Origin: Bacteroidota bacterium
GTDB lineage: Bacteria; Bacteroidota; Bacteroidia; Chitinophagales; Saprospiraceae
Reading direction: 5' to 3'
DNA: 64,000 nt
Assembly (NCBI GenBank): GCA_963169325.1
Contig: CAUJEY010000272.1
Coordinates: 1 to 64,000 of the forward strand
Shown: piece after piece, positions 6,111 through 10,103 of the stretch
Position numbering within the stretch: the first letter of the stretch is position 1
How the letters are laid out: each line of letters begins with the position of its first letter
Translations under genes and position numbers: made by a program
Notes under the pieces: model-generated
The model's database searches: none
What the model was told of the DNA's origin: nothing
The model's input: the letters and a program-made list of their open reading frames with translations, nothing else

Positions 6111-7388
6111 TCACCGAAGCCCGTTCAGCAGCCCCGACTTTTCCAAATGTTCCCGGCAGGGTTTGGCGCAAGGGCAGCGCCGGTTGGCTTTCCGGTTGCT
6201 GCCGTTGGCTTCAAATTCGTACACCAGCACTTCCACGAAATGCCGTTCGCTTACGGGCAGTTTGGCGATATCGTAAGGCAGCAGGGAGGTGGCGTTTTCG
6301 AGCCATTTTTGCGCCTCGGCGCGTTCGATGGTTTTGCCGTTCGAGCCGGCCGGTTGATCCGTTACGGCAAATACGAACACCCGGAAGTACCCTTTGTTGG
6401 GCACAAACATGGAAGATAAATAATCCATGATACCGCCGCTGCCTTCGCTCACCGGGTAGTCTACCCAGCGGTGTTGCTCGGGTTTGCTGGCGCCGTCGGC
6501 AGTGAATTGTTCGAGACGGGTTACCAGGGCGAATCCGTTGGGCAGGTAGTGGTAACTGCGCGACCAGTAGCGCCGGTTATCCAGGGCCTTTTGCAGCCAG
6601 TCGTCGACGGCGCCGAGGGTCTTGAAACGCCCCGCCATGTTGCGCTGCACGGTATACCGTTCGGCGCAAGTGGGCGGCGGCCAGGGAAAGGAGCGCAGGC
6701 CGGCTTGTTGCACCTTGTTTTCATCTTCGTAATATGCCAGGCTCCCGAGTCCCTGTATGGCGGCATCTGCGCGCGCCCAGCCCCGGGCGATAGCGGCCTG
6801 GCGCTCCTGGGCGGATACCGTGCCGTGCCCGGTAAATAAATAGGGTTTATTCCTGTTTTTTATCACCAAGGGCGCCGTACGCTGCCAACTGAACCCCTGT
6901 TCTGCATAGCGCCATTCTACCATCCGCAGCGCATTTTGCTCGTCGGTGAGGTGAGATTTAAACAGCACATAGCCCATAAACTGATCGGCGTCTAATTCTT
7001 CGTCGCGCCGGCAACAAGCCTCGAACCGGTGCCCGTTGAGCAAGTGGCCGATCTCGTGCGCCAGCAGCGCGTAGGCCTCCAGCGGTGTGGGCAGGTGGTA
7101 GAAAAAGTCCTGGCTGTAGAGCAGATAACGTTTGTCGCCGTCGAGGACTGCCGCCACGCTGGACACGTTGGTTTGCACCAATTCAAAATTGGCTTCCCGG
7201 CCGGCCCAGCCCAGGATTTTCCCGACGGCCTGCGGCACGCTTTCGTTGAGTTCGAAGCGGTAGAGCTCGTTTTCGATGGTATCGCCCCAGTATTGGCAGT
7301 AGTTTTTGGCGGAGAGATCGAGCAGGTCCTGGGCAGGAAGTGCGAAAGCGGGTAGTAAAAACAGGAGGAGAATGGAAATGCTGCGCAT
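6111..7388 (-). CDS. Secreted HEIGH-motif metallopeptidase
   Basis: Predicted exported zinc metallopeptidase of 425 residues. A signal peptide (residues 1-20, ending LPAQ) precedes an M48-like domain with LLAHEIGHLLNGH (HEIGH 111-115: two zinc histidines and the catalytic glutamate) and EELDADQF near 130-137, the usual third-ligand region. The C-terminal 250 residues are not recognised; the last 20 hold three cysteines. The N-terminal half is clearly paralogous to the next gene upstream (AVxDGKR-LYS-AHEIGH-LNGH pattern). The ATG at 7388 gives a clean signal peptide and lies 22 bases after a TACTTTTG box, so longer ORF versions are rejected. Confidence 0.85.
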   Translation of the reverse strand: MRSISILLLFLLPAFALPAQDLLDLSAKNYCQYWGDTIENELYRFELNESVPQAVGKILGWAGREANFELVQTNVSSVAAVLDGDKRYLLYSQDFFYHLPTPLEAYALLAHEIGHLLNGHRFEACCRRDEELDADQFMGYVLFKSHLTDEQNALRMVEWRYAEQGFSWQRTAPLVIKNRNKPYLFTGHGTVSAQERQAAIARGWARADAAIQGLGSLAYYEDENKVQQAGLRSFPWPPPTCAERYTVQRNMAGRFKTLGAVDDWLQKALDNRRYWSRSYHYLPNGFALVTRLEQFTADGASKPEQHRWVDYPVSEGSGGIMDYLSSMFVPNKGYFRVFVFAVTDQPAGSNGKTIERAEAQKWLENATSLLPYDIAKLPVSERHFVEVLVYEFEANGSNRKANRRCPCAKPCREHLEKSGLLNGLR

Positions 7389-7410
7389 GGCAAATGGTTT
7401 TGGTGGGGAG

Positions 7411-7418
7411 CAAAAGTA
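7411..7418 (-). promoter_or_regulatory. Candidate -7 box of the HEIGH peptidase gene
   Basis: Minus strand TACTTTTG, an exact TAnnTTTG match, 22 bases before the start at 7388. The bases beyond it belong to the GGGGCGAATT palindrome, so the -33 region has been replaced by or built from repeat sequence. The second peptidase gene has a near-identical context at 9860-9867, with TACTTTTA. Confidence 0.5.
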
Positions 7419-7835
7419 CGTGATGTGGGGCGAATTTTCAATTCGCCCACTCGCGAGCGGCAATTCTCGGTTTGTACGATCGACCCGGTTTTCGAGGTGT
7501 AGTCTGCGAGGCACGAGCAGGCGACATCTCGAAAACCATCTATGAATACACCATTTAAGGTTGAAAAGGGTGTCGTTTCAACTGTTTTTGAGATGTCGCC
7601 TGCTCGTGCCTCGCAGACTACACCTCAAAAACCAGATTAAGAATACCATTTAAGGTTGAAAAAGGTGTCGTTTCAACTTTTTTTGAGATGTCGCCTGCTC
7701 GTACCTCGCAGACGACACCTCAAAAACCGGCCATTTCCGATAAACTGAAAATCGTCCGCTCGCAAGTAGCAAATTGCAATTCGCCCGCTCGCGAGCAGGC
7801 GAATTAATCCCGAGAAATCGGGACGCCCCACACAA
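7419..7835. repeat. Nested palindromic repeat cluster between the two peptidases
   Basis: This gap of about 500 bases holds no gene. The outer halves are a broken GGGGCGAATT-family palindrome: GTGGGGCGAATTTTCAATTCGCC near 7426 (shortened here to its core GGGGCGAATTTTCAATTCGC) and the opposite arm, ending in CGCCCCACAC, near 7833. Inside lie three copies of a 50-base unit: 7487-7537, 7584-7633 and 7679-7728. The first is inverted relative to the others and is bounded by GGTTTTCGAG and CTCGAAAACC. The last two sit in a direct tandem of about 95 bases that also contains ACCATTTAAGGTTGAAAA. Confidence 0.8.
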
Positions 7836-7914: not shown

Positions 7915-9837
7915 TTACCCCCCACCCGCTGCCCTGGCGAGGCGGAAGCCAAAGTTCGCGTAGCGGTCCGACGGCGTATTGCTGCCCCGGCGCGCAGCCC
8001 GTGTGTAGACGGGGAGGTAGTACCAGGAGCCGCCGCGAAGGACACGGTACGATCCCGAACTTGCCCCACGGGGATTCGTTTGCGTGCCGGAAGCGTAATC
8101 GCCGTACCAGTCCCAACACCATTCCCACACGTTGCCGCTCATATCGTGCAAGCCCAGGCTGTTCGCCGTAAAACTGCCCACCGGCGTCGTTTTCCCACGA
8201 TACAGCCCGCTTACGGAGTACGGTTTTTTATAGTCGGCTCTCCCGTCAAAGTTGATTTCCGAAGGGTCGGCGATATCTTTTCCGTTGCCGAACCGGACTT
8301 TTTGGCCGCGCTGGCGTGCTGCGTATTCCCATTCCGCCTCGGTGGGCAAGCGGTAGCCGGTGGCGTTCCAGCTTGCCGTCACGTTGTCGCCGCTAATCGT
8401 GTACACCTTAGTCAGGTTTTGTTTTTCGCTCAGCCAGTTACAGTAGGCCACCGCGTCGTTCCAACTGACGTGAATCACCGGGTGGTTATCCGCCGTCCGT
8501 ACGTTGCCCTGTTCGTCGTGCCGCCAGTTGACACCCGATTTCGTTACCCAACTGCTGCCGTCGTAAATATAACTGTCGCCGCCTTTTTCCGCGTCGGTTT
8601 TGTAGCCCGTGGCATCTATGAACGCTTTGAATTCGCGCAGCGTCACTTCCGTTTTACCCAAATAGAAACTGCTCAGCGTCACCGAATGTACCGGCTTTTC
8701 GTTGTCGTATTCGTTGTCGCCCATCACGTCGCCCATGTCGAAGGCGCCGCCTTGTATCAGTTTCATCAGTTCCGGCGCGGGCGCCACCGTTTTCTCCGCG
8801 CACCCGCCCAGCGCGAACGTCCCTTTTTCGGTGGGGCATTTATCGTCGTGGTCGGGTATGCCGTCATCGTCGGAGTCGGGGCAGCCCTGCCAGTTGCGGG
8901 CGCCGGCCAGGTCGGGGCATTTATCGGCGGTGTCGGGCACGCCGTCGGCGTCGCGGTCGGCGGGCGGGCAGCCTTTGTTGGCGGGCAGGCCGGGGCTGTT
9001 GGGGCATTGGTCCTGGTGGTCGGGCAGGCCGTCGCCGTCGGAGTCGGGGCAGCCTTGCCATTTGGCGGGGCCTTTCTGGTATTTGCAGGCGTCGTCGCCG
9101 TCGGGTATGCCGTCGCCGTCGCCGTCGGGGCAGCCGCCGGTAGCGCTGGGGCCGTATTCGTCCGGACACTTGTCAGAGGTGTCCGACACGCCGTCGCCGT
9201 CGTGGTCGGTGGCGGTCACCGGGTTGCGGGTGGGGGTCACCACGCCGAGGGCTTTGAGGCGTTCGTCCTGGAGTTTCCAGCCCGAGGCCACGGCTTCGCG
9301 GCGGGCGCTGCCGGCGGGGTGGGTTTTGGTTTCGCCTTCGAGGGCGAATATTTCGGTGCCGGCCTTGGCGTCGTCTAAGGGCGCATTCAGCAGGCGCAGG
9401 GCGCTGCCGGAGAACTTGTCGGCCTGGAGTTCCATGGATTTGCGTTTGCCGGCGTCGGGCTCGTTGAAATTGTGGCCGTTCAGGTGGTGGCCGATCTCGT
9501 GGGCCATCACCGAGTAGGCCGCCCATTTGGTGCGGGTGTCGACCTTGAATTTTTCCAGAAACAGTGTGCTATACAGGATCACCCGTTTGCCGTCGGCCAT
9601 GGTGGCCACGGCGTTGCGCACGTTGGCGGATTTGATCACGAAGTTTTTATCCAGCCCCATGGCGTCGCAGATTTCCTGCACGATGCCGTCGGCCTCGGTG
9701 CTGGGCGCAAAGGAGTAATATTCGGTGGCGTTTTCTTCGCCGTCGTAGGAGCAGGAATGGGTGAGGCGGATGCGCTCCTGGGCGGGGAGTATGGAGGCAA
9801 AGAGCAGAGCGAGCAGCGGAAAGAGATGTTTCAGCAT
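7915..9837 (-). CDS. HEIGH metallopeptidase - TSP3 repeats - FGE-sulfatase-fold fusion
   Basis: Secreted 640-residue multidomain protein. Residues 1-20 are a signal peptide. Residues 40-190 are an M48-like peptidase with HEIGHHLNGH at 113 and ELQADKFSG at 136, paralogous to the downstream gene. Residues 210-346 hold about five thrombospondin type 3 calcium-binding repeats (DHDGDGVSDTSDKCPD and similar). Residues 356-636 form an FGE-sulfatase/C-type-lectin-like domain (GGAFDMGD, LPTEAEWEYAARQRG, GLHDMSGNVWEWCWDWYGD, RVLRGGSW, NFGFRLA). The two active-site cysteines of true formylglycine-generating enzyme are absent from its C-terminal segment, so this domain is probably for binding. The last 40 residues resemble a diversity-generating retroelement variable region. 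GldJ/GldK-type FGE-like proteins are an alternative relative for that domain only. Confidence 0.9.
   Translation of the reverse strand: MLKHLFPLLALLFASILPAQERIRLTHSCSYDGEENATEYYSFAPSTEADGIVQEICDAMGLDKNFVIKSANVRNAVATMADGKRVILYSTLFLEKFKVDTRTKWAAYSVMAHEIGHHLNGHNFNEPDAGKRKSMELQADKFSGSALRLLNAPLDDAKAGTEIFALEGETKTHPAGSARREAVASGWKLQDERLKALGVVTPTRNPVTATDHDGDGVSDTSDKCPDEYGPSATGGCPDGDGDGIPDGDDACKYQKGPAKWQGCPDSDGDGLPDHQDQCPNSPGLPANKGCPPADRDADGVPDTADKCPDLAGARNWQGCPDSDDDGIPDHDDKCPTEKGTFALGGCAEKTVAPAPELMKLIQGGAFDMGDVMGDNEYDNEKPVHSVTLSSFYLGKTEVTLREFKAFIDATGYKTDAEKGGDSYIYDGSSWVTKSGVNWRHDEQGNVRTADNHPVIHVSWNDAVAYCNWLSEKQNLTKVYTISGDNVTASWNATGYRLPTEAEWEYAARQRGQKVRFGNGKDIADPSEINFDGRADYKKPYSVSGLYRGKTTPVGSFTANSLGLHDMSGNVWEWCWDWYGDYASGTQTNPRGASSGSYRVLRGGSWYYLPVYTRAARRGSNTPSDRYANFGFRLARAAGGG
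7934..8040 (-). other. Candidate diversity-generating variable region (VR) in the FGE domain
   Basis: The stretch encodes the segment between RVLRGGSW and GFRLA, residues about 600-634. DGR target proteins with this fold vary here at codons that are AAC/AAT in the template. Many codons in the segment could arise from AAC by changing only adenines: TAC (four times), CTC, GTC, GGC and AGC. TTT before GGC TTC could come from ATT. No template repeat or reverse transcriptase is present in the window, so this is a hypothesis from codon pattern and fold. Confidence 0.4.
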
Positions 9838-9897: not shown

Positions 9898-9961
9898 TGC
9901 ACTTGCTGCTCGAAGTCCGCTGTGATGTCCACCGTGATTGCTCACTGTGACTGCCCGCCGT

Positions 9962-10103
9962 GATAACAATGGAAACGCTGACGACGCGGATTGGGCGGAT
10001 CGACGCGGATTTGCCGTGCGGGATGGCGCCGGGATAACAATGGGAACGCTGACGACGCGGACTTTGCGGATCGACGCGGATTTGCCAGGCAAGATTACGC
10101 CGG
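9962..10103. repeat. 71-bp tandem duplication
   Basis: Two adjacent copies, 9962-10032 and 10033-10103, both start GATAACAATG and end GCCGGG or CGCCGGG. Each contains the internal word GACGCGGAT twice. They differ at roughly a dozen positions, so the duplication is not very recent. No coding role is seen. Confidence 0.8.

Follow-up and report, generated by a model that had tools for sequence, protein, structure and literature searches.

A peptidase with a probably orphaned DGR-type variable tail in a Saprospiraceae bacterium

The variable protein TvpA of Treponema denticola (2y3c) belongs to a diversity-generating retroelement (DGR) and has an FGE/C-type-lectin fold. The same fold closes a protein that we describe here from a 64,000-nucleotide stretch of a Saprospiraceae genome (the whole stretch is called the window below). 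When solved relatives of its FGE-fold domain are sought in the PDB by sequence, FGE enzymes lead (best E 6e-40) and TvpA is among them at E 2e-26, a match that covers the tail-bearing part. We take the variable residues of TvpA to be located in the part that matches the window's tail. TvpA presumably carries neither a peptidase nor TSP3 repeats. Searches of the window's genome, for their part, yielded no DGR. The sulfatase-modifying enzyme FGE (SUMF1) shares the fold family as well, but the window's tail has no cysteine and is fused to a peptidase.

Peptidases with a diversified C-type-lectin (CLec) domain are already in print. Passages of Vallota-Eastman 2020 (PMC7517822) describe cyanobacterial DGR variable proteins with orthocaspase domains, placed N-terminal to the diversified CLec domain as the peptidase is here, and they also describe remote targets. 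According to these passages, the cyanobacterial proteins are of caspase type and mostly predicted to be cytosolic, whereas the window protein has a zinc-metallopeptidase domain, TSP3 repeats and a signal-like N-terminus. Passages of Dore 2024 (PMC10907252) present putative DGR antigen sensors of multicellular bacteria, in which FGE-type CLec targets occur with STAND, TIR, CHAT and EAD domains; the target of DGR 5 is there thought to be secreted or exposed at the surface. The window's genus likewise has targets with STAND, TIR and caspase domains. The peptidases named in the main text of PMC10907252 are trypsin-, caspase- and S8-type, and "M48" is absent from it. The main text of PMC8144416 has neither "peptidase" nor "protease", and PMC10053308 has "protease" once, in its discussion. 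No zinc metallopeptidase that combines TSP3 repeats with DGR diversification was found in the main texts and passages searched, and papers may mention one elsewhere. Because passages of PMC7517822 and PMC10907252 report orthocaspase DGR proteins and FGE/CLec targets with STAND, TIR and CHAT, the "new kind of system" of the initial annotation is too strong a term. Judged from sequence, what would be added to the caspase-type targets is an M48-TSP3-FGE target, seen with a DGR in a relative (genome G034) and probably as an orphan in the window.

The window protein and its neighbour

The features are collected in Table 1. The reading frame starts with ATG, and its N-terminus resembles a signal peptide by eye. 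The Peptidase_M48 match scores 32.2 bits against a Pfam cut-off of 20.3 bits, and the ELQAD motif presumably supplies the third zinc ligand, so that HExxH and a downstream Glu ligand would both be present as expected of an M48 peptidase. The composition proposed initially, a HEIGH peptidase, about five TSP3 repeats and an FGE fold in one secreted protein of 640 residues, is thus borne out by Pfam matches and motifs, and secretion is suggested by the look of the N-terminus. The same holds for its remark that FGE active-site cysteines are lacking after RVLRGGSW: residues 598-640 hold no cysteine. The active-site pair of FGE would, we assume, sit in this region, and both of its cysteines are then missing because the tail has none; an FGE enzyme with the cysteine pair in its tail is therefore not what we see.

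Table 1. Coordinates of the features in the window
Feature	Position	Strand	Basis
M48-type peptidase + five TSP3 cores + FGE-fold (C-type-lectin-like) C-terminal domain protein	7915..9837	-	ORF (640 aa), Pfam, motif reading; signal-like N-terminus by eye
Peptidase_M48 match, residues 53-124	9466..9681	-	Pfam E 1.2e-7
HEIGHH, residue 113	9484-9501	-	motif reading
ELQAD, residue 136, just beyond the Peptidase_M48 match	9418-9432	-	motif reading
Five TSP3 calcium-loop cores, residues 211-329	8851..9207	-	TSP_3 Pfam E 4.9e-11 + motif reading
FGE-sulfatase-fold domain, residues 358-635	7933..8766	-	Pfam FGE-sulfatase E 3.8e-70
24-residue variable-region-like tail, residues 606-629, between GGSW and GFR	7951..8022	-	alignment to genus DGR templates
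467-aa second HEIGH protein, weakly M48-like (under Pfam cut-off), directly downstream of 7915-9837	6111..7514	-	ORF, Pfam

The best six named matches of the whole protein are from Saprospirales or Saprospiraceae metagenome-assembled genomes, and the lower-ranked named ones include Treponema, Ignavibacteriaceae and others. Residues 1-205 have no PDB relatives by sequence at E<=1, and neither of the two proteins in Table 1 is matched by a PADLOC model at E<=0.001.

Homologues of the two genes share one stretch in the window's own genome (contig C145) and in the same-genus genomes G029, G031 and G034. The first gene of the pair has TPRs, not FGE, in C145 and G031; in G034 the pair brackets a DGR. 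The stretch 7463-7752 between the window's two genes holds an 84-nt direct repeat (95%) with copies at 7550 and 7645, as well as a 50-nt inverted pair (96%), and upstream of the peptidase gene there is a 71-nt tandem duplication (85%) at 9956-10097.

Seven proteins with M48 and FGE were seen: the window's and those at loci L083, L084, L144, L146, L148 and L283. A DGR adjoins one of the seven (L083) in the fetched stretch. At the columns that vary in DGR targets (defined below), codons ending in C or T number 5/12 in L144 and 7/12 in L146, both unlike a variable region, with L084 in between at 10/12; the tail of L148 has 25 residues and is rich in E and K. In L283, from another genus of the same family (G109, C56), HExxH and the frame of an FGE tail are present, and its tail was left out of the scoring. 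Among named genome contigs, a motif scan of 80 loci retained from 535 relatives gave no further fusion of M48 with FGE.

DGR parts in the genome and in the genus

The window's own assembly (G000) is a draft of 8.07 Mb in 349 contigs, 96.7% complete. The initial annotation saw no reverse transcriptase (RT) or template repeat in the window, and this extends to the whole assembly. With the RVT_1 profile and a DGR-RT query, no DGR RT was found in the 8.07 Mb. The profile finds four RTs, two of group II introns and two retron-like, and the DGR query matched nothing but the two group II RTs (29 and 21% identity); as DGR RTs all four were rejected. One of the retron-like RTs (L004 on contig C344) directly follows ORFs that resemble Cas1 and Cas2 by eye and is perhaps a CRISPR-adaptation-associated RT. 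The Avd family PF22296 had no match in G000, and in the same search all seven DGR-bearing relatives that were included matched. The copy of the tail differing only at adenines that the initial annotation had proposed to look for was also not found: used as a DNA query against its own assembly, the tail matched itself and then nothing better than E 0.096, so neither a template repeat nor a sister variable region was seen. At the same genome size, the partner in 27 of 27 pairs of variable region (VR) and template repeat (TR) from the genus scores E<=2e-13; these pairs had been picked beforehand for similarity, and a far more degenerate template could escape. With neither a DGR RT nor a template found in the assembly, one half of what the initial annotation had named as speaking against its reading is in fact observed.

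In the genus, DGR RTs occur at E<=1e-40 in 18 of 42 genomes, and a repeat scan of the fetched loci gave adenine-biased repeats at 22 of 28 RT loci and at none of the 17 loci without RT. In twenty-seven TR/VR pairs, 492 mismatches fall on adenines of the template and 43 on other bases, a ratio (492/535) that is partly due to selection, as the scan requires 90% adenine mismatches. The pairs derive from 32 raw rows, of which five were omitted (L083 1292/7321, L120 3646/3716, L122 2997/3067, L130 12439/162 and L134 4567/11403, which pairs two VRs). Pfam searches covered 20 of the 27 target frames, that of L083 and 19 of the 26 others. All 19 of these others match the FGE family, and their partner domains include nSTAND1, TIR, caspase C14 with TSP3, and TSP3 alone. 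Among the DGR targets, those of L139 (G024, C12) and L141 (G032, C117) have TSP3 and FGE, and L139 additionally has a caspase C14 domain and a start that looks signal-like by eye.

The case that matters most is L083 on contig C29 of G034. Its target (L083:5366-7192, minus strand) has the same layout of M48, TSP3 and FGE and is 47% identical to the window protein over residues 8-408. The RT alongside is 36% identical to brt of Bordetella phage BPP-1 over query residues 18-386 of 386 (96%) and contains LPMGNLTSQ, a motif that we take as counting toward a DGR-type RT. An Avd is recognized by bAvd (E 3e-22) and by the PHROG "Avd protein of DGR" (E 5e-25), and the PF22296 search matched G034 too. 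The TR is AAC-rich and differs from the VR at 12 of 28 adenines and at 1 of 68 other bases over 96 ungapped nt; after the aligned part the tail has an 8-nt gap against its template and is out of frame as assembled. With RT, Avd and an adenine-specific TR/VR pair all present, the locus qualifies as a DGR. It also holds a homologue (33%) of the window's downstream gene and an ORF with the effector-associated domain EAD11. Remote targets of the G034 template were considered and rejected: only its own VR matched strongly, and two weaker matches adjoin other RTs of G034.

Imprint in the tails

No gap is needed to align the window's tail with the DGR templates of the genus. The 12 tail columns at which most of these templates have an Asn codon are called variable columns here. 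In the window's tail, codons ending in C or T occupy 11 of the 12 variable columns and 5 of the 12 others (hypergeometric p=0.014). The single exception is GCG at 7957-7959, which is not derivable from AAC. Of the fourfold codons at the variable columns, 3/4 end in C or T. The initial annotation had pointed to many codons reachable from AAC by adenine changes. The codons that it listed are there (TAC four times, CTC, GTC, GGC, AGC), yet an enrichment over the whole tail does not hold: the share of NNC codons is 0.50 in the tail and 0.53 in the whole ORF, and we rejected it as evidence for a DGR. The signal is confined to the template-Asn columns.

Divergence was compared with the nearest paralogue in the same genome, a TIR and FGE protein on contig C190 (L087). 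The bodies agree at 182 of 233 residues (78%) and the variable columns at 2 of 12 (p=2e-5); the fixed columns have diverged too (5/12), and 2/12 against 5/12 is not decisive. For comparison, the conserved-tail orthologues L066, L071 and L072 (body 75-88%) keep 6, 6 and 12 of the 12 variable columns, a control of three proteins only that are themselves 10/12 NNY, and the DGR-served L139 and L141 keep 3/12 at 96% body identity. Of 18 TRs from relatives, the best-matching one differs from the window's tail at 21 of 32 adenines and 24 of 79 other positions (p=7e-4 uncorrected, about 0.01 when corrected for the number of templates). Each of these measures, codons, C190 and TR comparison, would by itself be modest evidence. 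Some variable regions have a hairpin nearby; none was found 3' of the window's tail (z -0.05), and this mark was dropped for the window. In the window protein and its C190 paralogue, one kind of sensor domain is thus joined to two kinds of effector head.

The imprint is clearer over the whole genome. Twenty FGE tails of the own genome have the standard length and were considered; those without exactly 24 residues from GGxW to GFR (e.g. L038, L040, L044) were excluded. Frames under 200 aa were omitted from the fourfold-codon comparison, and frames under 240 aa or with fewer than 205 residues before the tail from body/tail comparisons of the C190 type. Tails were split by the presence of K, E, Q, M or W at variable columns; this replaced a split by A/G-ending codons, rejected as circular for its "hi" class. 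Twelve of the 20 tails, the window's included, have none of these residues. In the twelve, fourfold codons end in C or T at 39/43 of variable and 46/88 of fixed columns (p=1e-5), and in the bodies 717/1307 do so. The bias is absent from the remaining eight (14/29). Known VRs of the same class have 53/64 at variable against 68/119 at fixed columns. Eighteen tails from relatives, not linked to a DGR in this analysis and taken from genomes with and without RT, give 52/62 against 76/130. In the relatives without RT, the cassette may have been lost or missed by the drafts, or the bias may partly have another cause.

A second trace is found in two own genes on contig C34. At variable columns, L043 and L045 have the same base at 12 of 12 third positions and at 6 of 24 first and second positions, while 29 of 36 fixed-column bases agree. 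By this pattern they look like sister copies from one lost template. When one of the two was used as a DNA query, no such template came up in the assembly, only other FGE-gene tails and short matches of at most 39 bases (E 0.06-0.7). From the codon bias in the twelve tails together with the L043/L045 pattern, it is therefore very probable that a DGR wrote the tails of this lineage in the recent past. Four FGE genes on three own contigs (L158 on C34, L161 on C130, L160 on C134) have the 3' end of the tail in common, and a conserved stretch continues beyond the stop codon, as an initiation-of-homing site might show.

Readings and proposed mechanism

We suggest that the window gene probably encodes an orphaned DGR variable protein: an exported M48-like peptidase, a TSP3 spacer and an FGE-fold tail that was once DGR-written. 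The proposal of a diversified peptidase tail would thereby stand in part. No DGR RT, Avd or template is seen in the own assembly, the tail has diverged from that of C190, and in G034 a DGR targets a homologue built in the same way. The kind of system envisaged would thus exist in a relative, and as far as the assembly shows the window holds at most an orphan of it.

The alternative that survives better, though we hold it unlikely, is an ordinary FGE-fold protein with no DGR ever involved, the tail being a normal ligand or scaffold loop whose Tyr, Ser, Asn and Gly surfaces use NNC codons in a GC-rich genome. The missing DGR parts, an NNC share that equals that of the ORF, M48 and FGE relatives with ordinary-looking tails (L144, L146, L148) and the C/T bias in tails of relatives for which no DGR link was seen would all suit it. 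Against it speak the column-specificity of the fourfold-codon bias over twelve own tails, the steep divergence of the tail from the C190 paralogue and the DGR-target status of the same-layout homologue. Still less probable, we believe, is an active target served in trans from a cassette in the unassembled few percent or an unbinned replicon: the assembly is an incomplete draft in hundreds of contigs, L043 and L045 agree as sister copies would and passages of PMC7517822 describe remote variable proteins, but the window's tail has no sister in the assembly, the nearest template differs at 24/79 non-A positions, and neither RT, Avd nor TR, whole or partial, was found genome-wide. Frozen orphan and cassette in unassembled DNA would be the two fates of a DGR-written tail, and we prefer the first.

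If the gene is such an orphan, the following mechanism can be imagined. The M48-like zinc metallopeptidase would be exported, and the calcium-stiffened TSP3 spacer would join it to the FGE-fold recognition domain. The last 24 residues ahead of GFRLA would be the DGR variable region. In the past, RT and Avd would have copied an AAC-rich template into the window's own tail with random changes at adenines, and lineages would thereby carry proteases with different binding faces. With the writer now missing, the tail would be orphaned and frozen. Binding of a ligand by the tail may position or trigger proteolysis, and what is recognized would most likely lie outside the cytoplasm, be it phages, prey or other cells. 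The EAD11 ORF at the G034 locus, together with the STAND and TIR partners of sister targets, would by analogy point to recognition of hostile agents, as passages of PMC10907252 put forward for other multicellular bacteria.

More tentatively, and with the odds somewhat against it, the picture may be extended to these Saprospirales bacteria as a group. They would then export a repertoire of calcium-dependent proteases, drawn from two or more unrelated families (M48 here and in G034, caspase-type C14 with TSP3 in G024) and equipped with DGR-written recognition tails; lineages could lose the writer and keep the tails, leaving a frozen repertoire of about a dozen genes that includes the window's.

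If our assumptions are true, targeted hypermutation acts on an exported protease, and extracellular cutting or triggering could shift within a population. The own genome, with tails that look DGR-written and no writer in the assembly, would moreover allow the decay of a frozen receptor repertoire to be followed after the loss of a DGR.
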